Below are positions 11,679 through 24,867 of a DNA stretch of 64,000 nucleotides, in pieces. The stretch spans positions 62,001-126,000 of the forward strand of contig NZ_QGDT01000006.1 in NCBI RefSeq assembly GCF_003149085.1, in the 5' to 3' direction. The translations under genes and the position numbers were made by a program. This stretch comes from Dyadobacter jejuensis. GTDB taxonomy: Bacteria; Bacteroidota; Bacteroidia; Cytophagales; Spirosomataceae. Position 1 is the first letter of the stretch; every line of letters begins with the position of its first letter. A model generated the notes under the pieces. It was not told where the DNA came from and made no database searches. It saw nothing but the letters and a program-made list of their open reading frames with translations.

Positions 11679-12047
11679 ATGAAAACAACAGAAGTGAAAA
11701 TGCTCAATTTTAGAGGTAATGAATATCCGTGTTGTGCAAGTTTAACAATGGGGATTATTGGTGGAAAATGGAAAACAGTGATCCTTTTTCATTTGATAAA
11801 CGAAAAACTAAGGTATAATGAATTGAGAAAATCAATGCCTACGGTTACCGAAAGAACCTTGAGCCTACAGCTAAAAGCTTTAGAAGAAGATGGTCTGATC
11901 AAAAGAAAAGTTTTTGCTTCAAAACCTCCTTTGAAAGTCGAGTATTGTTTAACTGATTTCGGAAAAACATTAATTCCACTAATCCAATCTATTGCCAATT
12001 GGGGTGATTCTGTGGCTGAAAAATATTCAATGGAAAATTCGGTTTGA
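11679..12047 (+). CDS. HxlR-family winged helix-turn-helix transcriptional regulator
   Basis: A 122-residue DNA-binding protein of the HxlR family. Family landmarks are an N-terminal Cys pair (EYPCCASLTMGIIGGKWKTV), then LRYNELRKSMPTVTERTLSL for the recognition helix, KALEEDGLIKRKV for the wing, and VEYCLTDFGKTLIPLI before the dimerisation helix. Such regulators sense redox or electrophile stress through the N-terminal Cys and usually control a neighbouring oxidoreductase. Here no such target lies next to it: downstream, and on the opposite strand, is a glycosyltransferase. The target may have been lost. A palindromic candidate operator lies upstream. MLNFRG at 11700 is an alternative start. 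Confidence 0.9.
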   Translation: MKTTEVKMLNFRGNEYPCCASLTMGIIGGKWKTVILFHLINEKLRYNELRKSMPTVTERTLSLQLKALEEDGLIKRKVFASKPPLKVEYCLTDFGKTLIPLIQSIANWGDSVAEKYSMENSV

Positions 12048-12120
12048 CCAAATTCACTGGCATGGTCCCTCCGAAATAACCAGGAATTACTACAATCACG
12101 CCTATTTTGTATATACATTG

Positions 12121-13644
12121 TTAGTGGTAGTTTTTCTTTTCGGCAATTTCATTTTTAATTCTTTGTCTAATGTCAATTTTTGCACCTGTGAATACAAATA
12201 TTCCTGTCCCAAATTCTCTTGAATATTTGTTTGTAATAGAGCCTACAATTAATGAAGTTTCAAAAAATGGCGATGTTTCGTGTAATTCTACATTTACTTC
12301 TTCGGCTTCTTTAACTCTAATTAAGTTTTCATATTTTTTAGTTAAATCAAACCACTCTATGTAGTCAGCATTGAATGAAACTGCTCGTAATTTTTGGCTT
12401 GAATAAAAATTTATAGCTCCTGCTTGTCCATAGTTGTCGCACAGAATTAAAGTCCTTTCTTTATTTGGTAATTTTGAGTAAATACTATCAACTTTTACGG
12501 TCAACTCTTTCCACCCCAACATATCAGCAAAGTCTTGTGGTAGTTCGTGGTCTTTACCGTCTTCCCAACGAAGCATACCCAATTTTTTATAATTTTCTGA
12601 ATGCTGAATTATGTATTCAGGGCTTTTATTGGGGAATCCAACATTAAAAATTGGAATAAATAAAATTAACGGAACTGCAATCGCAACTATTTGTAAATAT
12701 TTTTTCCAACCATCTATTAAAATATCTGCAAGATAAACAGAACCAAAAGCAATATAAATCGGGTAGATACCAATGGCATAATAATCTTTTGCCTTAAAGT
12801 AAATAAAGGCTGTTAAAGTAAATATGATAGAGAAAAAGAAAAGTTTATACTTACTGAAAGGCTTATAGAATAGCAAAGCATAAAACGAGGAAAAGAGTAC
12901 TAATAATGAACCAAAGAAAAAGAGTAATTGATTCTTCAAAAAGTCTAATCTATTCACATTCACTAATTGAGTTTCTGCCAATTGTTTTAAGTGGAGAAAG
13001 ACTGGAAAATTGTTATTGTATTGCCATACAAGATTAGGTAAAATTAGAACCAACCCTAATAAAATGGCAAAATACAAAGTAGGTCTTAAAAATATTTTTC
13101 TATGTTCTGTAAGCAATAAAGATGGCAAAAGTCCAATTAAGAGAAAAACTATATTGTATTTATTTAGAAAGCCAATTGCAAATACTGTCGCTCCTATATA
13201 AAGCCATTTTGAATCATCCGTTTTGATATATTTTAGTAGAATAAAGTATAAAACTGTCCAACTTAAGACATCAAAGGAATTGGGTTGATACAATGTATTT
13301 AGTCGCAATAGTGCGGAAAATAAAACACAAGTTGCACCTAAAATTAATGCAAAAAGGTTTCCTCCTAATTCTTCTATTGCTTTCCAAACCACAAAGATTG
13401 TCAAAGCTCCATACAGGGCAGGGAAGAATTTAACCCAAAAAATTGAATTGCCCAATACTTGAACAATGTATGATGTCCAAGAGGTAAAAGGTGGAACTGA
13501 AAGATAACCCCAAGCCAAATGATTTGCTTGGTCAAGATGCAAATACTCGTCTCGTTGCAAGTCATACTCACTACTTAATAGTAAAAATTGCAGCAAGAAT
13601 TTAAGGCCAATAAAACCTATTAAAATTGTCGTTTTTATTGTCAT
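12121..13644 (-). CDS. Glycosyltransferase family 39-like membrane protein
   Basis: A 507-residue integral membrane protein related to ArnT/PMT-type (GT39, PMT_2) glycosyltransferases, which use polyprenyl-phosphate sugars to modify lipids or proteins on the periplasmic face. The first membrane helix is followed by a loop with YDLQRDEYLHLDQANHLAWG, which contains the catalytic-type Asp-Glu pair, and then GYLSVPPFTSW, the characteristic PPF motif. About ten further hydrophobic helices and a soluble periplasmic C-terminal domain follow. The gene is AT-rich like the rest of the island. It converges with the HxlR gene and has no obvious operon partner. The acceptor is unknown. Confidence 0.82.
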   Translation of the reverse strand: MTIKTTILIGFIGLKFLLQFLLLSSEYDLQRDEYLHLDQANHLAWGYLSVPPFTSWTSYIVQVLGNSIFWVKFFPALYGALTIFVVWKAIEELGGNLFALILGATCVLFSALLRLNTLYQPNSFDVLSWTVLYFILLKYIKTDDSKWLYIGATVFAIGFLNKYNIVFLLIGLLPSLLLTEHRKIFLRPTLYFAILLGLVLILPNLVWQYNNNFPVFLHLKQLAETQLVNVNRLDFLKNQLLFFFGSLLVLFSSFYALLFYKPFSKYKLFFFSIIFTLTAFIYFKAKDYYAIGIYPIYIAFGSVYLADILIDGWKKYLQIVAIAVPLILFIPIFNVGFPNKSPEYIIQHSENYKKLGMLRWEDGKDHELPQDFADMLGWKELTVKVDSIYSKLPNKERTLILCDNYGQAGAINFYSSQKLRAVSFNADYIEWFDLTKKYENLIRVKEAEEVNVELHETSPFFETSLIVGSITNKYSREFGTGIFVFTGAKIDIRQRIKNEIAEKKNYH

Positions 13645-14078
13645 TGAGACGTGTTAATTAAAACTACCGCCAACACCGTTATTCACGAAACCATTTGCGT
13701 CTATTTCGAATTAGTCAGTAGGATTCTTTACAATAATATCGAAATTTTCAAAAATACCAAGCGGGCTTTGGGGCTATTCATCCAGGTAAGCAGCCGTATT
13801 TACATCGTCCGCCCAAAGCCAGGATTCCTCACCGACCCGAATTAACCAAGAGACCCCGAATCAATACCACCAAAAAACAATGACCCCCTTTCAAGGTTTT
13901 AACTCGCTCGGCCTATCTATAAAATGTCATCCAGCGGGAAGATCCTCGGGAAGCCCTCGGGAAGCCCTGCAGTTTTTTTACCGAATCCAGCCCAAAGGAT
14001 CAAGTAAGTTGGCCTTGTCGCATAGTGATGTTTTAAGCGGCAAGGTAATTTCTTGATCTTTTAAAGTGGCACAAAACG
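13645..14078. other. Non-coding stretch before the IS66 remnant
   Basis: No intact gene is seen. Base composition is mixed, suggesting patched-together fragments. At 13667-13685 the plus strand reads CCGCCAACACCGTTATTC. This joins in one place the two end motifs of the attC-like element found at 22.8-22.96 kb, without its stem. Short open stretches have no recognisable relatives. Confidence 0.4.
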
Positions 14079-14243
14079 AACCGTAATATCCAAACAGCCC
14101 AAAATGCGACCATGATCTATTCCTTGTGCGCTACCTGCAAAAAACACAAGCTGAATCCAAACGACTGGCTACTGGACCTGCTACGCAAACTCAACGATAT
14201 CAATTACGATGGTAAGTTCTCCGACCTGCTTCCGCATAGGTGA
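14079..14243 (+). pseudogene. IS66-family transposase, C-terminal remnant
   Basis: Reading from 14079 the frame gives NRNIQTAQNATMIYSL, then ATCKKHKLNPNDWLLDLLRK and a C-terminal SDLLPHR before TGA. This is the C-terminal tail of IS66 transposases, whose signature is a YSL..TCK segment, then NP..WL and a final LLP. Only about 55 residues survive. The catalytic DDE domain and the two accessory ORFs are missing, and no terminal inverted repeats are visible. It is evidence of past transposition at this edge of the island. Confidence 0.75.
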
Positions 14244-14265
14244 AAAACATCCTAAATCCTGTTAA

Positions 14266-14562
14266 TTATATGGCATAAGGGGGGGGCGACTGATTATGTA
14301 ATTTCAACCACTCTTTTGGCTCCACGATTTCCGTTTTGATTAGCCCAGTATCACGGTATTCCCTAGCCCAATGACTTCCATTTTAGACACCAATCGTACC
14401 CGTTTGATTTTGATTCTTCAACCAACTTGAACATTTCTATACTCTTTGAGTCTTGTTTTGACATCGCTTTCCATCTTTTAGGTCTTAATTTCAAAACTAC
14501 ATCCTGGTCATCGAATGAAAAATATGAACTTGCTTCGGCGGATACGGTTAAGCACCAAAGTT
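14266..14562 (-). pseudogene. Frameshifted small gene downstream of drmB, unknown function
   Basis: On the minus strand an open frame without upstream Met reads SYFSFDDQDVVLKLRPKRWK, then SIEMFKLVEESKSNGYDWC, and ends at a TAG near 14361. Directly overlapping it in another frame, HWAREYRDTGLIKTEIVEPK continues for about 35 residues to TAA at 14266. Two adjoining coding-like segments in different frames suggest one short protein broken by a frameshift. It lies immediately after the drmB stop in the same orientation, so it may be a decayed last gene of that operon. A run of eight C residues lies near its end. No family is recognised. Confidence 0.4.
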
Positions 14563-14564
14563 AG

Positions 14565-16568
14565 TTAAAATCCCGAACTTTCGGGCTGGAACTCCCCCCC
14601 ATGGTGTATAGCCGATGTTATACACTCTCCCTTTAACGTTCTGTTTATCAAACCCTTAAAGTATCCATAATCTTTGTCAACTAAAATTCGTCTGTCAAGA
14701 TAGCAATTGAATTTTTCGCAAGAAGTTTCGGGCAATAATGTACAACTGAAACAAGCGGAAAGATTCAAGTTTGCCACACCTTGTCCGTGTGTATGGTAGC
14801 AAATGGGGTCTGTCGCACAGTCAATTGCTCGAATCATTGCAGATTCAATTAGTTTACCTATTCTGTCGTCATCACAAATTGATGTTATTCCACCGTAACT
14901 TCCCTCAGAACCTGCAATTGTGTAAATTAAAACTCCATTCATTTCAGGGTTTTCGTCAATGTATAGTCGCTCTTGAATTGAAGTTGATGGATAACCACAC
15001 AAATACTCCAACTCCTTAATAATTAAATGCGAAAATGTATGAATGAGAACATATTTTGGGTTTAAGTCAAAGTCCTCATTAAAGGTAGATTCAAACTGTT
15101 GTTTGTTCCCGATTAAAACTGAAATTCGTTCTTGTATTTTAGGATTGTTTCCAATCCATTCATCTAAAGTTTTATTGTCAAATTCAAAAAACACACCTTC
15201 TCCAAAACTTTCAATCGCTGGTAAATATGTTGTTGTTTTCCCATAAGTAGAAGTGAATTTTTTGACAATGCTTTCAATTGTGGTTTTTTCAGGGTCTTCA
15301 TCTTCTAAAATTGCATTTGATGCAATTGGTTCTTGTCTCGTATACGAAGTCTGAACAGATGCAATTTTTATTTTATCCATTTTAAAAATGGATTTTATCA
15401 AATCACTCTGAAAAAAAGAATTGTCTATTTTGTCGAAAATTAATTTATCTTCAATTATCTCACTATCTTTTTCAGTGATGAATTTGTATTCATCAAATCT
15501 GTATTGGTTTTCAGTTTTTGCAATTTCAAGATTCCTTTCGCTGAAATTATTATCAATCAGTTTCTGAATGGTTTCGGAATCTATATCAATGTTTTTATAG
15601 CGTTTTAGATTTCTTGAAATTGTTTGGGCATTACTTCCGTCATTGTATTCTTCCTTAACCAAGTTGATTGAAAACTCGTTTAATTCATCATTGGCAGGAA
15701 TAAAAATACTCGACAAAATATTTGGGTAATAAACGCTATTACTTGAACGAATAACAGGTTTAAATAAAATGTCGGTATCCTTTGAGTTAGGAATTAAATC
15801 TTGAATTTTTACCCTTAGATTGAACAAACCCGAAAGTGTTGTAAAGTTTATTTGCTCTCCGTTTTTTCTTTTTGCAATTATCCAAATACCTTTCAAATCG
15901 TCCATTTTATCGGATGTTTTGTACTCAAAAATAACATCATCTGGAACTTGAATATTTGCGAGCGTGATAATTTCTTCTTCACTTGGGGTATGGATTGATT
16001 CTGTACTTTCCTCTTTTTTTCTGTATCTGAGTAATGACCATTTATCCCAAGGTATATCGGCAATTTCTCCATTTGGAGATGTTAGAACAAAACGAACTTG
16101 TTCCAAATCATAGAACTTTCTTTTTTTATCTCTGTTTCTCACGTAGCAACTGTAACACTTGGGTGGGTAAAAATTGTCTTTATGGTATGAATCAACATTA
16201 TTTTCCCAATTGATTTTCCACTTGTCAATTCTATCAAAACGATTACAGTTGTTGCAGTAAAACCACTCAGGGAAGTATTTTGCAGATATAAAAGCAAATT
16301 GATTTTCGGGCTTAAAACCTTGTTTTAAATCGTTAACGGGGATTTTTATTAAATGTTCTAACTCGTAAAAATACTTACTCAATCGGTTTTTGAATCTTTT
16401 GTCAATGACAAAATTGTGTTCTTCAAATTGTCCATTTATAGTTTGAAAAAAAGGCCATTCGTTAAAGTTGTCAATCAATATTGAACCATCTCTTGTTTCT
16501 AGAATAGAACCAACACCACCATACGAACTAATGGCTTTTCTTGTTTGTATTTGCTCAAATTGTCCCAT
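14565..16568 (-). CDS. drmB: DrmB-like DUF1998 protein of a DISARM-type defence system
   Basis: A 667-residue protein ending in a DUF1998 domain, the hallmark of DrmB, which works with the DrmA helicase in DISARM anti-phage defence. Residues 500-640 show YVLIHTFSHLIIKELEYLCG, IAGSEGSYGGITSI and a Cys-rich finish (SACFSCTLLPETSCEKFNC). An N-terminal zinc-finger-like set, CNNC near residue 103 and CYSC near 139, is also typical. The start ATG shares one base with the drmA stop (TAATG), indicating translational coupling. Known DrmA-DrmB pairs form a complex that engages DNA ends; that is family knowledge, not seen here. The gene is strongly AT-rich. DUF1998 proteins also occur outside DISARM, but the partner gene supports this call. 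Confidence 0.82.
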   Translation of the reverse strand: MGQFEQIQTRKAISSYGGVGSILETRDGSILIDNFNEWPFFQTINGQFEEHNFVIDKRFKNRLSKYFYELEHLIKIPVNDLKQGFKPENQFAFISAKYFPEWFYCNNCNRFDRIDKWKINWENNVDSYHKDNFYPPKCYSCYVRNRDKKRKFYDLEQVRFVLTSPNGEIADIPWDKWSLLRYRKKEESTESIHTPSEEEIITLANIQVPDDVIFEYKTSDKMDDLKGIWIIAKRKNGEQINFTTLSGLFNLRVKIQDLIPNSKDTDILFKPVIRSSNSVYYPNILSSIFIPANDELNEFSINLVKEEYNDGSNAQTISRNLKRYKNIDIDSETIQKLIDNNFSERNLEIAKTENQYRFDEYKFITEKDSEIIEDKLIFDKIDNSFFQSDLIKSIFKMDKIKIASVQTSYTRQEPIASNAILEDEDPEKTTIESIVKKFTSTYGKTTTYLPAIESFGEGVFFEFDNKTLDEWIGNNPKIQERISVLIGNKQQFESTFNEDFDLNPKYVLIHTFSHLIIKELEYLCGYPSTSIQERLYIDENPEMNGVLIYTIAGSEGSYGGITSICDDDRIGKLIESAMIRAIDCATDPICYHTHGQGVANLNLSACFSCTLLPETSCEKFNCYLDRRILVDKDYGYFKGLINRTLKGECITSAIHHGGEFQPESSGF

Positions 16569-19500
16569 TATTTGTTTATTATTTTCACAATACTATTCGT
16601 ATCTATTTCTCTCATTGACATCATCAAACTCCAATCGTCCAAGTCGGACATTTTTTTAATCAAAATTTTATAGGTCAAATCGCCCTCTTTTGTCGTCCAT
16701 TTTTCGGCTAAAACCTTCAACTTGTCCAACGCATAATCCAATTGCTTTTTATTTTTGATTCTTGCGGAAATGAAAGTTTTTAGTTCCTCATAATTGCCTG
16801 TGAAATCTTTGGCTCTGTTGTCAAGATATAAACCTTGTTTGTGTCGGACAAAACAAACCAACAAGCTCGCCAAAACTTTATCTAAAGCAATTTCTGTAAA
16901 AGGTGTGACACTTAATGGCTCTACGTATTTGTAATATGCGTTATTGAAAGGAACGTAATTTTCAAAATACGATTTGTCTCGTGAACGGTTAGCATCCAAT
17001 AAATTGATAACAATTCCTTTATCCTTTCTACCAACACGGCTTGATGCCTGAATGTATTCGGCAACATTTTTAGGTTGTCCATTCATCAACATTACATTCA
17101 GTCGATCAATATCAATACCAACCGAAAACATATTGGATGCCAAAACCAAATCGACCGTGTTTTGAACAAAACACCATCCATCTTTGGCAATTAGGCTAAA
17201 CTTCATTTCGAGTTCGTCCAATAGCTTCTTGATAGAATTACTTTCTATTCTACTTGTCAGTTCTTTTGTTCTTCCTGCAAGTCCAAAATAGTTAAAGCCA
17301 TAAATCTGTTTATTAAGCTGATAACGATTATGTAAGAGTTTTAAAAAATCTGAAATTTCCGCAGGCACCTTGTTATAAACCTTTCCAACATCACGCAAAC
17401 TGTTGTAAAAAGAAACAATAGTCCAAAAATTATTTTCTCGACTTATTGCCTCTTCTTGCGATAAATTCTCCTTTACTCTGTAATATTTGAACAACTCAAT
17501 ACGAGCCAAAAGCAAATTTCCCAAAATCCGTATTTGAGAATTTAAAGCTGTTTTCCCTGTTGGCATAAAACCGATATGCTTCCTCTTACTTTCAGTTGAA
17601 ACGTAAGAAAAGAAGTTGTCATCATAAGTTACGCCCATTGGTGGAAATATGTTTAAGGCTCTATTCCCGTAAAGCATTGCAACTTGTTGTTCCGTATTTC
17701 GGGTTGTTGCTGTTGAAGTAATGATTTTGGGTTTTCTTTTTCCTTTCGTTGAAAGCATTTCAACAATTGATTCATATAAACCAGTAATTGAGCCCAAAGG
17801 ACCACTCAACAAGTGCAACTCATCTTGAATAATCAAATCAGGTGGCTGTTTGTTTTCTTCCAATGAATTAAAAAGGCGATGTCCTTCTTTCCTATGCGAA
17901 AGCATTGCGAATTTATCAACCGTAGCAAACAGCAATGTAGGTGGGAAATCATAAATTTTACCATCAATAAAATAAATGGGCAATTCTTCACTAAATGCAC
18001 AAATAGGATTTAAGCAGTTGGTTGAAAATGTTTTGTCGGTTGCTCTGTAACCTAAATCAAATTTACCCGATTGATTTTGGGAAACTAAATTACAGCCACA
18101 CCAAGAACAGTTGGTAATTGGGAATGAATTTGCTTTACGATAATCTCCTGTTCTTCTGTTATTTAGCTTGGTAATTTCATCAAATACTTTTTTAAAAATT
18201 GTCCGAGCGTCCGAATATGAGTTTGGCGTTGTAGATGCTCCAACCCACATTCCAATTGAAACTTTATCATTACCAAAAAAGTAATTATCGCCTGAATGAA
18301 AATTCCTTCTCAAAAAATCCAACGAAAGAATCAGTTTTGTTGCTCGTTCAAATTGTTGAGCTGTCAACAATCGTAAAGTATATCGCATTATTACGGAAAC
18401 CCCGTCAGCATATTTACCGTATGTAATTCTTCTACTAATTATTGTGAAAGCTGTAATTGCCAAATACGCTTCTGTTTTTCCGCCACCTGTCGGAAACCAA
18501 AGTAAATCAACAACATTATATCTGTCATCTGAATCTTCTTTGATTATTGATTCAATATTCAAAAGAAAGAATGCCAATTGAAACGGTCTGTAATTTGGCT
18601 TGAAAGAATGATTTTTGAAAAAGTCTAAATCATTGTAATTGATATTTTTGTCAATTTCAGATAGCTCAATTCCTTTTTTTCCAAACAAATCTTTGTTAGA
18701 GATTAGCATTTGAATATACATTGCCGTGTTTGCCAACAAAAAAGCTTTAAAAGCTATTTCGTTGTCATTTAGAAATTCAATGTTTTTGATTAGTCTTTCG
18801 TATGCTTTATTTTGCTTTTCTAAAATGGTGCATAGCGGTTTTTTGCAATTATCTTCCGCAGTTGTTTTTTCTTGTTCAGTTATCCAATTCTTGTACTCTT
18901 TGGCAAATAGTTTTAACTTTTGAATTATGGTTGGTTTGTCGAAATCAGTCCAAATTGAAAGTTTTTTCAACTCGGTTATATCTTTCAAATTTGCGGGGAA
19001 AGTGTCTTTAAAAGCGTTACTGTAATTTTTAATATCAACTTCGGGTAAAAAAGTGGTTTTTAATTCCGTTGGATTTTTGTCGTTATTCCAAGTAACCGCA
19101 CAACCGTGTCCAATGGCAAAAGAGCGTTCATTTCTGTATTGAAAATTGATTAGGTTTAGTTCTTCGTCAAACGGATTTGTCTCAGAAATTTGCTTGTATG
19201 GCAAAAATGTAACATCCGAAACGGCAATTTCGCCCTGAAAAATTGCTTTCGTGTTTAAAAGTTCATTACCAAACGAAAATTTATTTTTCGGGTGGTTCAA
19301 TCTGTTTGCCAATAGAATTTTTATGAATTTGCCGAATTGTGTTTCATAAATTTTCTTGTAGTAGCAAGTAATAATTGAATTGTCCTCTTGGTGTTGGTCT
19401 AACGGATATTCTTTTGATTCATCAGCATTAATTCCCATTAGGTTTAAAGGTACAATTACAGGCTCTCTCTTTACTCTTTTCCAAAGACGTTGTCCTAATA

Positions 19501-20176
19501 TAAGCTCACCTTTTTTGTATCCAGTACTGTCAATTAATTCTTGTTGCTGTTCGTTTTCCTTAAATCTGCTTCTGTAATTTCGAACGGACAAACCTCCTTT
19601 GTCAAATTCTTCTTTATTTAAGGACATTAGTCCATTTTCATAGTTAAAATATTTGCTGACAGAATTATATGGGTTTTCGGAAAACTTTCTGAAATCTGCT
19701 TCTGATATTTCAATTACAGCATCTGTTGGGTTTATTTGAATGTACTTTGCGTAATTGAAGGTTACGGTCAAGCTTTCTGCATTTTTTGGAACGCAAAAAG
19801 TTAAACCAAAATTTGTTGGGAAATATTGATTAGCTTCTGAGTATTCTTTTTCAGGTTCTACATTTTTGCTTTTATCAACATCTTCGTCAAAATCATTTTC
19901 ACTATCATTGGTTTGATTCAAATCTGTGTCAAGATTATCATCTTCAATTTCAGCGTTTGCATTCGCATCAGCATTTTTCCCAATACCGTCCTTTTTGGGA
20001 TCATCAATATCACGTTCAGGAAACAAAATTCCTGAAAAATACCGACTCAAAGGGTAATCAGAGATAATTTCGTTATCTGAATCCGAAATCAAAACATCCG
20101 AACCTGGACCAATCAAATTTTGTTGAATGGTATCACGAAATAATAATCTTGGCTCGTTAAGGTAATTACTCATCAA
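16568..20176 (-). CDS. drmA: DrmA-like superfamily 2 helicase of a DISARM-type system
   Basis: A 1202-residue SF2 helicase resembling DrmA. Walker A is FPTGGGKTEAYL near residue 562 and the DEAH-type box is IIQDELHLLSGPLGS near 785. Helicase motif VI is QASSRVGRKDKG near 1045. Between the motor motifs, CSWCGCN (about 693) and CLNPIC (about 721) form a probable zinc-binding insert. Residues 65-115 are an unusual run of Asp, Asn and Glu. The DELHLLSGPLGS motif, the long N-terminal region and the DUF1998 partner are all typical of DrmA. The gene overlaps the upstream drmE-like gene by 11 bases and abuts drmB, so the three form one operon. It is AT-rich relative to flanking core genes. Confidence 0.85.
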   Translation of the reverse strand: MMSNYLNEPRLLFRDTIQQNLIGPGSDVLISDSDNEIISDYPLSRYFSGILFPERDIDDPKKDGIGKNADANANAEIEDDNLDTDLNQTNDSENDFDEDVDKSKNVEPEKEYSEANQYFPTNFGLTFCVPKNAESLTVTFNYAKYIQINPTDAVIEISEADFRKFSENPYNSVSKYFNYENGLMSLNKEEFDKGGLSVRNYRSRFKENEQQQELIDSTGYKKGELILGQRLWKRVKREPVIVPLNLMGINADESKEYPLDQHQEDNSIITCYYKKIYETQFGKFIKILLANRLNHPKNKFSFGNELLNTKAIFQGEIAVSDVTFLPYKQISETNPFDEELNLINFQYRNERSFAIGHGCAVTWNNDKNPTELKTTFLPEVDIKNYSNAFKDTFPANLKDITELKKLSIWTDFDKPTIIQKLKLFAKEYKNWITEQEKTTAEDNCKKPLCTILEKQNKAYERLIKNIEFLNDNEIAFKAFLLANTAMYIQMLISNKDLFGKKGIELSEIDKNINYNDLDFFKNHSFKPNYRPFQLAFFLLNIESIIKEDSDDRYNVVDLLWFPTGGGKTEAYLAITAFTIISRRITYGKYADGVSVIMRYTLRLLTAQQFERATKLILSLDFLRRNFHSGDNYFFGNDKVSIGMWVGASTTPNSYSDARTIFKKVFDEITKLNNRRTGDYRKANSFPITNCSWCGCNLVSQNQSGKFDLGYRATDKTFSTNCLNPICAFSEELPIYFIDGKIYDFPPTLLFATVDKFAMLSHRKEGHRLFNSLEENKQPPDLIIQDELHLLSGPLGSITGLYESIVEMLSTKGKRKPKIITSTATTRNTEQQVAMLYGNRALNIFPPMGVTYDDNFFSYVSTESKRKHIGFMPTGKTALNSQIRILGNLLLARIELFKYYRVKENLSQEEAISRENNFWTIVSFYNSLRDVGKVYNKVPAEISDFLKLLHNRYQLNKQIYGFNYFGLAGRTKELTSRIESNSIKKLLDELEMKFSLIAKDGWCFVQNTVDLVLASNMFSVGIDIDRLNVMLMNGQPKNVAEYIQASSRVGRKDKGIVINLLDANRSRDKSYFENYVPFNNAYYKYVEPLSVTPFTEIALDKVLASLLVCFVRHKQGLYLDNRAKDFTGNYEELKTFISARIKNKKQLDYALDKLKVLAEKWTTKEGDLTYKILIKKMSDLDDWSLMMSMREIDTNSIVKIINK

Positions 20177-22604
20177 CTAAAGTTTTTTTAATTAAAGTTT
20201 TCTCTTGAATTGTTGCCGTCAGTTTTTCTAAAATATCTTCGGGCAATTTATTTAATGAATCGCTTCTTTCTTCTTTATTAGAAGCGATATAATCCAACAA
20301 ATCGCTACCTAAAATTTTCCCTGCTTGTTGCCTTATAGAATGGTCTTTTTTTGAATACACCTTGAATTTGTCAAATTCAATAACAATTAAGTCATCTGAA
20401 CGATTGTTTTTTACACAAAAATCTCGAATAACCTCCATTGTTTTCAACCTTGGAAATCGAGTTTCACAATCAGTATCCAAATAATTTCGGAATGTGTTAT
20501 AATGGATTTTGTATGATTGGAAAAGGGAGTCGTACAGTTTTTCTGCACTTCCAAATTGCACGGATAAGTCCTTTAAAGTCTGTTTCCAACTGTCGGAATA
20601 CTTGTCAAATGAATCCAATAAATTGTCTGCATCGAAGATTTTCAGGATTTTTCTAAACTCCTCTCTACTGTTATTTTGATAAAATCGAATAGTTGCGTTA
20701 CAGTATAGTTCTCCAATAGTTGTATTTATTTGTTCGCCATTTTCAATTAGGAAAACACCTTTTGACGAGTCAAATTTGTCTATGGTTCCGTCACTAAACT
20801 GAATTTCATAAACAGCATTTTCTTTCGGCAAATCAAGAGTTTCGTAAGGATTGTTTTTAAAGTTTTCATTATTAAAATCAAATGAAAAAATATCATCTAA
20901 ATCTCTTTTCTTCAATTCTGTTGAATGAGTGAAATTAGTTTTGAAAAATTCTAATCTGTCTTTATGATTTAGCTTCGCCTTTTCTTGATTTTGATAGGCT
21001 TGTTCAACATTTTCAAATGAAATTTCATCCAAATTCTCATAGCAAAGAACCTCGCAATCTCCTTTTAATGCCTTGATTTTTATATATAGTTCCATATTGT
21101 TTAAATAGGGAACAATAACCAGTTTGTTTTGCGAGTTTACATTGTCATTTAACCACTTATCCAAATAGAATTTGGAATTGTCAATTCTTTTGTCGCTTAT
21201 CAATTTAATGTTACTGATTTTTTCGTTTTTAATTTGAGCTGAAACTGAATCAAAGTTTTTCTTTTCTACAACTACGTAAATTGGTTTGTGTATTTCTTGT
21301 GCTTTTGACTTGATGTAATTCCACTTCAAATTTTCGTTTTCTAATGTGCTAGAAATTTTGGAAAACAAAATATAAATTCTATTTGTGTAGCCCTTGATTG
21401 TGTCTGGATTGTAAATGTCTTTTTCGTAAAAGAGATTGTTTAATTCTTCTGAAAATGCTTCGCTTTGAAAATAATGATTTAGGCGGTCTAAATACTCTTG
21501 ATAAATTCCTTTTGACAAATTAGTCTTGACCAAAATCATCCTTAAGAAAAAATTCGTGTACTTTAAGATGTAGGCAAGGTTTACCATGCTTTCATCTTTT
21601 ATTTTTTGAATTTCTTCTTTTAATTCTATGAAAAGGGAATAAAGAGTGTTGTTTTGCAAACAAACTTTTTGCGTGTTGTTTGGTAATTCATCGTTAGCGA
21701 TTTTTACTTCGTCATTAGACCACCACCAATCTAAAAACAGATTTTCTGAACTCGGCTTTTCTGTACCTATTATGATGATGTTTTTGTACTTTCCTCGATA
21801 TTTATCTTGCAGAATGAAATCAAAATTATCACGATACTTGGAATCCCCAATAATTATTATCTCGTCAAACGTTTGGTTTTTATTTAATAAATAATTTTGA
21901 GCGGTTTCAAAATTATTACAGCATTCTACCATATAATTGAAAAAAGGTAAGTCATTCTTTAATTTGCCATTTCTATTTGTATATCTAATTGGCAAATGCT
22001 TACTTTCTTTGAAAAATCTTCGGTCTGCTATTACCAAAGTATTATTCTTAAAATCTGTTATGAATGGGAATTTTTTTCCAAAAACGTTTTTTAAATAGTT
22101 TACATAGTTGTCAATGTTTTTGGCTGTATTTCGACCATTGAATAGATTAGGATTTATTTTGTAAAACTTATGACCGCTAATTGAAATTTGCGCTCCTATT
22201 TCATTTCTTTTTGGAAATTGGTAATTCAGGGATAATCCTTTAACAGTCTTACCAATTACTCTAAATACACGTTTTTTTGTTTCAGAATATATTAAATCTC
22301 CTATTTCAAGCGGAGGATTCTCCTTCTCGAGCTTGAAAAAATTTTGATAAAGTTTTATTAGAACTATTGAATTAAAAATTGAAGCAAAAAAATTTTCTCG
22401 GTATTCGTCTTCGGGGATGCTTATGAAAAGGTCATTTTTGATCGACTCGTCGGTTAGAATATATTGGTAAATTAGGTGGAAGTTTACAAAGTCAAATGTG
22501 CTGTACTTTTCAAAATCAGTCACTCGCAGATTGATTTCGTCCGAGTAACATTCCTGTACTTCGGAGTCTATTCGGTTTAGGTAGTTTTTTATTTGTAATT
22601 TCAT
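20166..22604 (-). CDS. DrmE-like protein, first gene of the DISARM-type operon
   Basis: An 812-residue protein with no motif I recognise with certainty. Its position directly upstream of drmA and drmB, its size near 800 residues and its lack of helicase or methylase motifs match DrmE, the uncharacterised first gene of class 2 DISARM. Inside it, FDEIIIIGDSKYRDNFDFIL and YKNIIIIGTE look like the beta strands of a Rossmann-like core near residues 245-285. Near the C-terminus there is a helical segment, YNTFRNYLDTDCETRFPRLK, that could bind DNA. The protein is soluble, and no signal peptide or membrane helix is seen. The 11-base overlap with drmA supports coupled expression. The DrmE label is an inference from context. 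Confidence 0.55.
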   Translation of the reverse strand: MKLQIKNYLNRIDSEVQECYSDEINLRVTDFEKYSTFDFVNFHLIYQYILTDESIKNDLFISIPEDEYRENFFASIFNSIVLIKLYQNFFKLEKENPPLEIGDLIYSETKKRVFRVIGKTVKGLSLNYQFPKRNEIGAQISISGHKFYKINPNLFNGRNTAKNIDNYVNYLKNVFGKKFPFITDFKNNTLVIADRRFFKESKHLPIRYTNRNGKLKNDLPFFNYMVECCNNFETAQNYLLNKNQTFDEIIIIGDSKYRDNFDFILQDKYRGKYKNIIIIGTEKPSSENLFLDWWWSNDEVKIANDELPNNTQKVCLQNNTLYSLFIELKEEIQKIKDESMVNLAYILKYTNFFLRMILVKTNLSKGIYQEYLDRLNHYFQSEAFSEELNNLFYEKDIYNPDTIKGYTNRIYILFSKISSTLENENLKWNYIKSKAQEIHKPIYVVVEKKNFDSVSAQIKNEKISNIKLISDKRIDNSKFYLDKWLNDNVNSQNKLVIVPYLNNMELYIKIKALKGDCEVLCYENLDEISFENVEQAYQNQEKAKLNHKDRLEFFKTNFTHSTELKKRDLDDIFSFDFNNENFKNNPYETLDLPKENAVYEIQFSDGTIDKFDSSKGVFLIENGEQINTTIGELYCNATIRFYQNNSREEFRKILKIFDADNLLDSFDKYSDSWKQTLKDLSVQFGSAEKLYDSLFQSYKIHYNTFRNYLDTDCETRFPRLKTMEVIRDFCVKNNRSDDLIVIEFDKFKVYSKKDHSIRQQAGKILGSDLLDYIASNKEERSDSLNKLPEDILEKLTATIQEKTLIKKTLVDE

Positions 22605-22824
22605 TCAAGGATAGTTCTATTAACTATGTCTGGTTATATTTAATTTTTTCTTTTCGGATTATTTTTGCTTTTATTGGCTGTTTTTGCCCTAAACGGAGCG
22701 GTCAAATAAATTATTTACAATTGCCATTTATGGGATATTCTTCTCAATTCAGTCTTTATAGATTTCTAATAAGTTTTTTTGAATAATACCCTTCAATTTA
22801 TCCGCAATGTTCTTTTTGGGGGTT
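22605..22824. other. Leader region of the DISARM-like operon
   Basis: AT-rich spacer between the drmE-like start codon and the attC-like element. On the minus strand TTTATTTG, one mismatch from the -7 consensus, is the only promoter-like word noticed. No RNA structure or ORF stands out. Confidence 0.3.
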
Positions 22825-22958
22825 GCATAACGGTCTCGGCTATGCGTAGTGCGGGATTTCAAGGCAATTCACTTTCCGCTTAGCAGTAAGTTTATTTATT
22901 GTAATTGCTTTCATATCAGCACTTTCTCCCGCATTACGTATAGCCAATGTTGGTGGCT
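22825..22958. repeat. attC-like imperfect inverted-repeat element
   Basis: Arms GGCTATGCGTAGTGCGGGA (22838-22856) and its imperfect complement (22927-22945) match at 17 of 19 positions and enclose about 70 bases. Outside the arms lie GCATAACGG on the left and ATGTTGGTGGC on the right, giving AAC and GTT core triplets like the ends of integron attC sites. Elements of this look are common beside accessory genes in Bacteroidota. It sits between the DISARM-like operon and the SH3 gene, ending a few bases from the SH3 stop. The RYYYAAC/GTTRRRY consensus is not fully met, so integron-type recombination is only a hypothesis. Confidence 0.5.
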
Positions 22959-22962
22959 GGCT

Positions 22963-23868
22963 TTATTTTTCCAGTCCTTGAATTAAGCATCTATCTTTAG
23001 TTATTGTTATTGTTCCGCTCCATACATTCTGATTTCCTTTCGCTTCAATTTTATAGGTACCTACTGGTTTATTTACAGATAAAGTTCCCGATTCACCACA
23101 ATCTGGAGTGCCATCTGTGAAGTATTGAGATAGTTTTCCAATGTATTTACCATCTAAATAGATTTTAATTTCTCCATCAGTCCCACAATTAGTCCAAATT
23201 GTAATTCTTCCATTTCCATATCCGTATGGCGCTGTAGTCGAATTAAGGCTAGAATACGTGTTATTATTGTACGAATAATTATAGTTGGAATAGCTGTCAT
23301 TGAAGTATGGTTTTGAAGTACTTAAATAACTGCCCGATACATAGCCTGTCATAGTCCGATAAGAATAGGAGTCAAAATCGTAATAGCTGTATTGAACCTT
23401 TTTCCATCCGTTTGAATAAGATTCAATAACTTTTACATTGTCAGACTTAGAAAGAGAGCCAACTACTGTGTAGCTAGAAGAAGGTCCTGAACGCACATTT
23501 AAAGAACTTGCCGTCACGTAGTAATTTGAATAGTAGGATGAGCTTGAATTATTATAACTGCTATTGGATGGTGTTGAATATGTCGTTGATGGATAGTTGT
23601 AAGTTGAAGAATTAGAACTACTTGAAGAGCGATTATAATAATTATTTAAATAAGTATCAGGATTTCCTGTCGCTGTCTTTCCTGTATATGGATTAGTATT
23701 TCCAGGGTAACTCCAATTATTATATGGATTCCCGTCTGGATTAGACCTGTAATGTGGTTTAACGTAAGTTCCGTCTTTTCGGTAATATCCTTTAACTTTT
23801 ACCTGTGCAAAGGATTGCAACGTCATCAATAATGTCAGAAAAATAAACAGTATTCTCATATTTGTCAT
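22963..23868 (-). CDS. Secreted protein with bacterial SH3 domain
   Basis: A 301-residue exported protein. Its N-terminus MRILFIFLTLLMTLQSFAQ, from the Met at residue 4, is a clear signal peptide. After VKGYYRKDGTYVKPHYRS, a motif common in small Bacteroidota surface proteins, comes a Ser/Asn/Tyr-rich linker (about residues 75-115). Next is an SH3b domain starting TASSLNVRSGPSSSYTVVGS that ends near SGYLS-type residues at 185. A C-terminal domain follows (ITIWTNCGTDGEIKIYLDGK and Cys pairs). SH3b domains often bind cell-wall peptides. The gene is flanked by the attC-like element downstream and by a matching half-site (ACCAACATTAG at 23882-23892) upstream, like a mobile cassette. Function is unknown. 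Confidence 0.75.
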   Translation of the reverse strand: MTNMRILFIFLTLLMTLQSFAQVKVKGYYRKDGTYVKPHYRSNPDGNPYNNWSYPGNTNPYTGKTATGNPDTYLNNYYNRSSSSSNSSTYNYPSTTYSTPSNSSYNNSSSSYYSNYYVTASSLNVRSGPSSSYTVVGSLSKSDNVKVIESYSNGWKKVQYSYYDFDSYSYRTMTGYVSGSYLSTSKPYFNDSYSNYNYSYNNNTYSSLNSTTAPYGYGNGRITIWTNCGTDGEIKIYLDGKYIGKLSQYFTDGTPDCGESGTLSVNKPVGTYKIEAKGNQNVWSGTITITKDRCLIQGLEK

Positions 23869-23932
23869 TTTTTTAGCTTGACACCAACATTAGTATAAAC
23901 TCCCCAAAATATACCCTATGTCATATATATCG

Positions 23933-24100
23933 TTATTGTGAATACCTATTTTTTCTTGAAATATCTAAATAATCAACCGGACTCTTTACAACTTTATTAT
24001 TTACTGACAGTACGTGGGTGTAAACTTCACTGGTTTTACTGCTTCTATGTCCTAGCATTTTTTGAATTATCCTCAAATTAAGCCCTTTTTGTAATACAAG
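23933..24100 (-). pseudogene. Tyrosine recombinase (integrase), C-terminal remnant
   Basis: The minus strand encodes LQKGLNLRIIQKMLGHRSSK followed by TSEVYTHVLSVNNKVVKSP and ends at TAA (23933). This is the C-terminal catalytic end of an XerD/phage-type integrase: LGHRSSKTSEVYTHV carries the conserved His and the nucleophilic Tyr. Everything upstream, including the first catalytic Arg, is missing or out of frame. About 50 residues remain. It marks the right edge of the AT-rich island and suggests that the island once carried its own recombinase. Confidence 0.8.
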
Positions 24101-24867
24101 CCGACAGGCCGGACCCGTCTCTAAGCCATTCCGCAGGGAATATATTGTCTCTCAAGCATTTACACCGCAATTCCCACCGAAATATTTCATATATAATGAA
24201 AATATTAGCACTCCTCCTTTTATAATACCCAGGTATAAAGATTTTGATTAAAACAATATTACATATCGAATCTACCCGTATGGATGTCAAAAAAAGTTGA
24301 ATTAATTTATCACCAATATGGTAAATAGAGGAGCTTAGCTTTTAAAATATCCTCGTCGCTGATCTAAAAGCTATTTATAGTCCACTGCCATGGCATTTAT
24401 CACCGTATTATGCTAATAATCAGACCTATTATACTTCCTTTTTAAATAACAAACATGGTTTTCTAGCGCAATTATCTAAACGGATGAGGCTTTATGCAAT
24501 TGCTCTTTAGCGCTGTATTCTTGGTTACTTATTCTATATTCAATAATAAAATATTCGCAACGCTATTACTAAATACGCTAAACCCTATACGTGTTTACCA
24601 GTACCTGGTCAAATCCCTTACTTCGTTCTGGCCCCACCCTATTCCCCCCCCCCCAAAAAAAAGCAGGGTGCCTAATAACCGAAAGTCTACCCTATACCCA
24701 GAGCAACTTTCAATTAAAAAAAGCACCAAAAATGGGCAAGAAAGAAGGAACCATGGAGATCTCTTTAATGAAATCGGAGGCTGGCTTCCAATCATTACTC
24801 CTTCCCACCTACTTTGCAATAGGCCCTTGCGTCATACGCACCCTAGTAGGCGCTCCTATTGGCATCC
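24101..24867. other. Gene-free spacer at the right edge of the island
   Basis: About 770 bases with no supported gene. Several open frames on both strands overlap each other and show no family features. A homopolymer block of 11 C followed by eight A lies at 24644-24662. Composition changes from AT-rich to GC-richer across this stretch, consistent with the end of acquired DNA. Confidence 0.5.

Follow-up and report, generated by a model that had tools for sequence, protein, structure and literature searches.

In a 64,000-nt stretch of the Dyadobacter jejuensis genome (contig NZ_QGDT01000006.1, positions 62,001 to 126,000; hereafter the window), three minus-strand genes of the open reading frame (ORF) list lie end to end and encode, in this order, an 812-amino acid protein (protein X), the helicase DrmA and its partner DrmB. 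Our best explanation, to which we assign a probability of about 0.5, is that this cassette is a methylase-free relative of the DISARM systems, composed of a divergent DrmE, DrmA and DrmB and moving horizontally among Bacteroidota as a unit. Self and non-self would then be told apart by DNA structure, through a loop-gated DrmAB pair and a DrmE-like protein that senses or places it; the figure applies to composition and mechanism jointly.

DrmA, DrmB and the DrmE-like protein

The genes of X (20166..22604), drmA (16568..20173) and drmB (14565..16568) overlap by 8 nt (X/drmA) and 1 nt (drmA/drmB), in agreement with the three overlapping genes of the original prediction; all gene and motif coordinates given here are on the minus strand. 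DrmA, a YprA-family helicase of superfamily 2, is 1201 residues long when counted from its ATG (the ORF list begins one codon upstream, at a TTG). It matched the PADLOC DrmA model (E 7e-167) and the DrmA structure 7s9v_A in PDB (E 7e-120), and it scored 776 bits on the NCBIfam model DISARM_DrmAS (NF038325), below the cut-off of 950. Its helicase motifs are intact and include the DELHLLSGPLGS motif, PTGGGKT within the Walker A sequence FPTGGGKT (18473..18496), motif II DELH (17813..17824), STATTR and QASSRVGR. DrmB, a DUF1998/MZB protein of 667 residues, scored 301.5 bits on the NCBIfam model DrmB_fam (NF038324), above the cut-off of 240, and matched the PADLOC model (E 2.5e-58) and the DrmB structure 7s9v_B (E 3e-36); its score on Pfam MZB/DUF1998 was 23.3 bits, slightly below the cut-off of 24.2. 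In the DUF1998 domain, a cluster of conserved cysteines (residues 584-617, 14718..14819) is intact and aligns with cysteines of Serratia DrmB. By Pfam, neither DrmA nor DrmB has a nuclease domain. These profile searches uphold the earlier assignment of the helicase and the DUF1998 protein to DrmA and DrmB, and the two are shown by homology to be a split YprA-family helicase pair, with the helicase and DUF1998 parts in adjacent genes.

The identity of X is less direct. The family of X was gathered stepwise and includes proteins from loci L002, L003 and L004 (71-73% identity), L007 (50%) and L006 (about 21%), with further members in L091-L093, L056, L058 and L112-L115. Protein X itself had no credible match to DrmE in PADLOC, Pfam, NCBIfam or PDB, but several of its relatives did match DrmE models. 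On the NCBIfam DrmE model NF038316, the scores were 39.1 bits for L092 (E 2.9e-10), 34.1 for L058 (E 9e-9), 27.0 for L112, 21.4 for L115 and 18.2 for L091, and every score of the X family on this model falls below its cut-off of 80. On the Pfam model DrmE_C (PF24957, cut-off 27), L113 scored 28.1 bits, above the cut-off, and L056 (25.0) and L114 (19.6) scored below it. No match to NF038316 was found at E 0.1 for L006, L007, L057, L093, L113 and L114, nor at E 1 for L056, and the X proteins of L112 and L115 had no Pfam match at E 0.01. When seven core X proteins were aligned by hhalign to the four proteins that match DrmE models, the probability was 68%; with 14 X proteins it was 94%, and the alignment covered residues 604-729 of the window protein (20418..20795), which correspond to the C-terminal DrmE region. 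The original claim that the 812-residue protein is DrmE therefore stands as a remote family relation and fails as a direct match of X. We consider X to be a putative divergent DrmE with its best support in the C-terminal part, the remainder being assigned from length and gene position.

Neither a P-loop nor an HKD motif was found in any of 14 X family members, and the charged residues in the near-invariant columns of the family are few and limited to E, K and R (E299, K427, R550). The lack of an enzyme motif together with the scarcity of such residues suggests that X serves as a sensor or partner and is not an enzyme itself. X is most likely a non-catalytic partner, predicted to sense or place DrmAB, and it might possibly be a nuclease of another kind.

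Related loci, methylase linkage and distribution

In all 17 loci, the window included, the DrmE-like gene is directly followed by drmA, and drmB comes next in 15 of them. The two exceptions are L057, whose contig stops inside drmA, and L002, in which drmA is shortened and drmB absent. In L057, both X and DrmA are split over two ORFs, and in L048 a 510-residue ORF near the contig end matches the C-terminal two thirds of X. Apart from the window, X alone led to twelve of the loci; the search with DrmA added L048, L056, L057 and L058, whose adjacency of X and DrmA results from selection. The same gene order in 17 loci indicates that the three-gene arrangement exceeds chance.

The linked DrmAs group together. 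A quickly built tree of 39 rows united 15 of them (Shimodaira-Hasegawa-like approximate likelihood ratio test support of 97), and a more careful tree of 35 rows united 11 of these at 98/96. Both trees were built without L002 and L057, and the DrmA of L050 was trimmed to its first 1150 residues. That locus (L050:8567-13564, genome G167) contains a single ORF of 1665 residues which is a DrmA-DrmB fusion. A sister DrmA clade (L041:5851-18379 and L042:6342-18739) presents a C5 methylase, a P-loop protein and a protein of 829/834 residues upstream of drmA, and it possibly represents a further DISARM-like class. For these 829/834-residue proteins, which match no DrmE model, and for an 801-residue protein upstream of DrmA in L061, a relation to DrmE was not borne out.

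Nucleotide similarity with L003 and L007 is confined to the cassette. The window shares DNA only over positions 14656-22608 with L003 and 14657-22496 with L007, flanks being present on both sides in each case. The shared DNA spans 17229-22654 with L002 and 14633-22621 with L004, whose contig carries little beyond the cassette and is therefore uninformative on the cassette ends. The cassette DNA of L112 is 86% identical to that of L058.

The original prediction took the operon for a reduced or alternative version without linked methylase and drmC; that such a version recurs is supported here. Profile searches of the window and of 40 kb on each side, with local profiles of 2-9 proteins each, revealed no C5-methylase, N6-methylase or phospholipase D (PLD) nuclease gene, and over the same range a profile of two PLD proteins that occupy the place of DrmC gave nothing. 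No drmC-like gene was found in any of the 17 loci. With L004 left aside for its short contig, 16 loci are informative, and in 11 of them the examined stretch contains no DNA methylase gene linked to the cassette. Nor was a split system found in the genome: the genome-wide matches to PLDc_2 (PF13091) are two polyphosphate kinases only, and the single C5 methylase (PF00145) lies on another contig, in another gene cluster. The genome-wide methylase check is mixed, however: the C5 gene is unlinked to the cassette, but type I-kind N6-methylase genes (PF02384) are present on contigs C1 and C16, and the genome also has one of the Eco57I type.

Several relatives have defence genes as neighbours. In L058, L092 and L115/L116, the cassette lies downstream of type I restriction-modification (RM) genes. 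In L091 it sits inside a type I RM operon, as hsdM, a gene for 217 residues, hsdS, the drmE-like gene, drmA, drmB and hsdR follow one another on one strand (L091:1078-16584, genome G410). Locus L007 (5437-19500, genome G057) presents, on one strand, the end of a C5 methylase, an McrB-like AAA protein, a 559-residue protein, a Piwi-domain protein resembling prokaryotic Argonautes (pAgo), and the DrmE-like protein, DrmA and DrmB, an unusual compound defence array. Finally, genes for an HNH nuclease and a methyltransferase-HIT fusion lie directly 3' of drmB on the same strand in L113 (4004-5976, genome G870) and are possible partners of the cassette.

The cassette is sporadic. Of 200 genomes in the family, 4 contain X by sequence search, and of 390 in the order, 7 do by profile search; both counts include the window genome. 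In a sample of the phylum, 44 of 395 genomes matched DrmA at E 0.001; 20 of these matches, at E 2e-109 or better, were taken as true DrmAs, and 24 were weak (E 3e-6 or worse). Five of the 20 true DrmAs belong to the cassette type (the window, L007, L048, L056 and L057). Among plasmids, X was detected by its own sequence in one record and DrmA in 73 records. DrmA was not found in phages, and X was not found in viral contigs in one scan able to detect close relatives only.

Within the window, the cassette is enclosed in a low-GC stretch (11700..24500) with a GC content of 0.33, against 0.46-0.48 on either side. Other genes of this stretch (11679-13644 and 22966-23868) encode an HxlR-type regulator, a PMT_2 glycosyltransferase-like protein and an SH3_3 protein, for which we saw no link to defence. 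A scan for promoters and terminators gave numbers about equal to those of shuffled sequence, and a search for repeats at the cassette ends yielded weak AT-rich matches only. For recognising an unoccupied site in other genomes of the genus, the flanking protein offers at most 45% identity.

Self and non-self discrimination

A cassette with neither a methylase nor a nuclease of its own probably discriminates phage DNA by something other than a self-made methylation mark; we infer that it has to avoid self-DNA without a linked methylase. Serratia DISARM offers a possible mechanism. Serratia DrmAB binds single-stranded DNA or DNA with a 5' overhang (7 nt), and not double-stranded or 3'-overhang DNA (PMC9142583). 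An unstructured loop of Serratia DrmA (residues 176-232) excludes other DNA and sets this binding preference, and DrmC is non-essential in that system (PMC9142583). The window DrmA carries at the place of this trigger loop an acidic low-complexity segment of 66 residues (approximately residues 53-118, 19820..20017), which aligns weakly (1.2 bits) to residues 191-263 of Serratia DrmA, immediately ahead of a conserved block. The segment is present in all 11 linked DrmAs examined (the window and 10 others), with a D+E fraction of 0.21-0.36; the scan parsed 28 of 35 DrmAs.

By analogy with Serratia DISARM, the acidic segment probably blocks the DNA channel of DrmA. Phage DNA ends or replication single-stranded DNA would displace it and allow DrmAB to load there, and the freed helicase would unwind or jam the phage genome. 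The DrmE-like protein would act as an accessory, non-catalytic partner that senses or places DrmAB. Self DNA would be spared mainly by its structure; an RM system, whether next to the cassette or elsewhere, could contribute a methylation mark, but such a mark is not built into the cassette.

Several observations weigh against this explanation. A methylase is linked to the cassette in 5 of 16 informative loci, four with type I RM genes and one with the C5-methylase/McrB-like/Piwi run, and L112 and L114 retain hsdR fragments. In the phylum sample, linkage to a methylase was found in 1 of 5 cassette-type loci versus 11 of 15 others, a difference which is not significant (p 0.11). The acidic segment is also present in DrmAs of methylase-bearing loci and is thus not specific to the methylase-free class. 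Finally, 5-methylcytosine in DNA severely lowers the ATPase activity of Serratia DrmAB (PMC9142583), so that methylation sensing may be general.

The proposed methylation sensor of Serratia DrmA, V1296 (PMC9142583), was placed by its SMREV motif in the printed sequence, which extends up to residue 1317. The window DrmA has an isoleucine at this place (residue 1190, 16604..16606, motif SMREID). Isoleucine occurs in 9 and valine in 5 of the 14 cassette DrmAs with the motif, a fifteenth (L048) having no pattern match, and isoleucine is found in all three sister-clade DrmAs, two of which are methylase-bearing. The change is mild and is seen in the sister clade as well. It was rejected as a marker of the methylase-free state, as both residues are found with and without a linked methylase.

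An unlikely alternative, and the one that fares best, is that the cassette serves as an accessory module of RM systems, of type I or another kind: self DNA would be marked by a methylase, encoded in cis or in trans, and DrmE, DrmA and DrmB would attack DNA that is unmarked or has been translocated or cut by the RM enzyme. The position of the cassette between hsdS and hsdR in L091, its place after type I RM genes in the other three such loci, the run of L007 and the PF02384 genes of the window genome all favour it. It is opposed by the 11 loci that lack a linked methylase, by the limitation of the DNA common to the window and L003 to the cassette, and by L112, where the cassette is retained but the hsdR preceding it in L058 is reduced to a fragment, and where the examined stretch has no match to the L058 hsdM. 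Because the genome encodes type I and Eco57I-type N6-methylases and some relatives lie beside type I RM genes, methylation in trans is an option, and self may be marked by a separate RM system.

Somewhat less probable still is a pair resembling Druantia type III, in which the DrmE-like protein would sense a phage protein or DNA structure and activate the helicase by contact, thereby stopping phage DNA circularisation or replication. In Druantia III, DruH and the YprA-family helicase DruE depend on contact, block circularisation and replication, and DruH is the likely sensor (PMC13316683, PMC13192584); X has no recognisable enzyme motif and invariably precedes drmA. On the other hand, PMC13192584 assigns nuclease activity to DruH, of which X shows no sign, and the domain make-up of DrmAB differs from that of DruE (PMC12458937). 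This alternative also shares ground with our best explanation, the trigger being the main point of difference.

It is improbable that the cassette is a decayed, non-working DISARM that lost its methylase and nuclease: two of the five genes needed for PADLOC type II are missing and some relatives are broken or cut (the DrmA of L057 and of L002), but in the window all three reading frames are uninterrupted and overlap, the helicase motifs are intact, and three other hosts keep X at 71-73% identity, DNA similarity being limited to the cassette. We can nearly dismiss a DNA-repair helicase set of the MrfAB/YprA kind, for although the YprA family contains repair helicases (PMC12458937), the best matches of DrmA and DrmB are DISARM models and the distribution is sporadic, on plasmids and sometimes beside RM, McrB-like or Piwi genes.

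We accordingly favour structure- or trigger-based recognition, with RM marks as optional help. A bolder version, which we regard as tentative, is that these loci form a distinct methylation-independent DISARM class in which DrmE gates DrmAB. The three proteins alone would recognise phage DNA from its ends or through a phage trigger, and the module would slot into type I RM or McrBC/pAgo operons as a portable helicase effector.

Relation to known systems and implications

The cassette resembles class 2 DISARM (DrmE, DrmA, DrmB, DrmC and DrmMII) in its DrmA and DrmB, which match models directly, and, through matches of the X family, in its putative DrmE. It differs in the absence of drmC and drmMII in the window and 40 kb on each side and in that X falls under every DrmE model. 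Under the PADLOC rule, type II DISARM needs all five of DrmA, DrmB, DrmC, DrmE and DrmMII (PMC9252829), so that the cassette qualifies for neither type I nor type II; X itself has no PADLOC match. With class 1 (DrmD, DrmMI, DrmA, DrmB and DrmC; Serratia DrmAB cryo-electron microscopy structures 7s9v/7s9w), it shares the split helicase/DUF1998 pair, an acidic loop at the same place and the C-terminal SMRE-V/I motif. In contrast to class 1, its DrmA is shorter (1201 vs 1325 residues) with isoleucine in place of V1296, no DrmC or methylase was found by profile, and no DrmD was noticed among the neighbouring genes, which were judged by eye with no profile search.

Druantia type III (DruH-DruE), with two components and no methylase among them, also combines a YprA-family helicase with a large partner of another kind, but DruE unites helicase, DUF1998 and nuclease in one chain, whereas in the cassette these parts are split and DrmA and DrmB lack a nuclease domain. 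ARMADA (a BrxHII-like helicase, a PglX-like methylase and a YprA helicase) has a YprA-family helicase core as well. Unlike ARMADA, the cassette helicase is split over two genes and its DrmA matches DISARM models; no BrxHII-like helicase or PglX-like methylase was noticed among the neighbours (by domain scan or by eye), and the N6-methylase profiles were empty in the window.

Many uncharacterised DISARM-like classes are mentioned in PMC12458937. Both this source and PMC11090510 mention a DISARM-like cassette associated with McrBC (Bell et al.), which recalls the L007 cassette beside its McrB-like gene. The available passages of these two sources make no mention of the present three-gene class, of its DrmE relation or of its placement in type I RM operons. 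The cassette is perhaps one of the uncharacterised classes of PMC12458937. A methylase-free DrmE-DrmA-DrmB class was not described in the literature searched, and the founding DISARM paper may hold such cases.

Our results show the DISARM core passed on as a three-gene unit that is also placed in type I RM operons. PMC9142583 leaves to future study how DrmAB works together with DrmD and DrmE. A natural compact set of DrmE and DrmAB without methylase or DrmC allows a direct test of how DISARM discriminates self from non-self and of what DrmE does.
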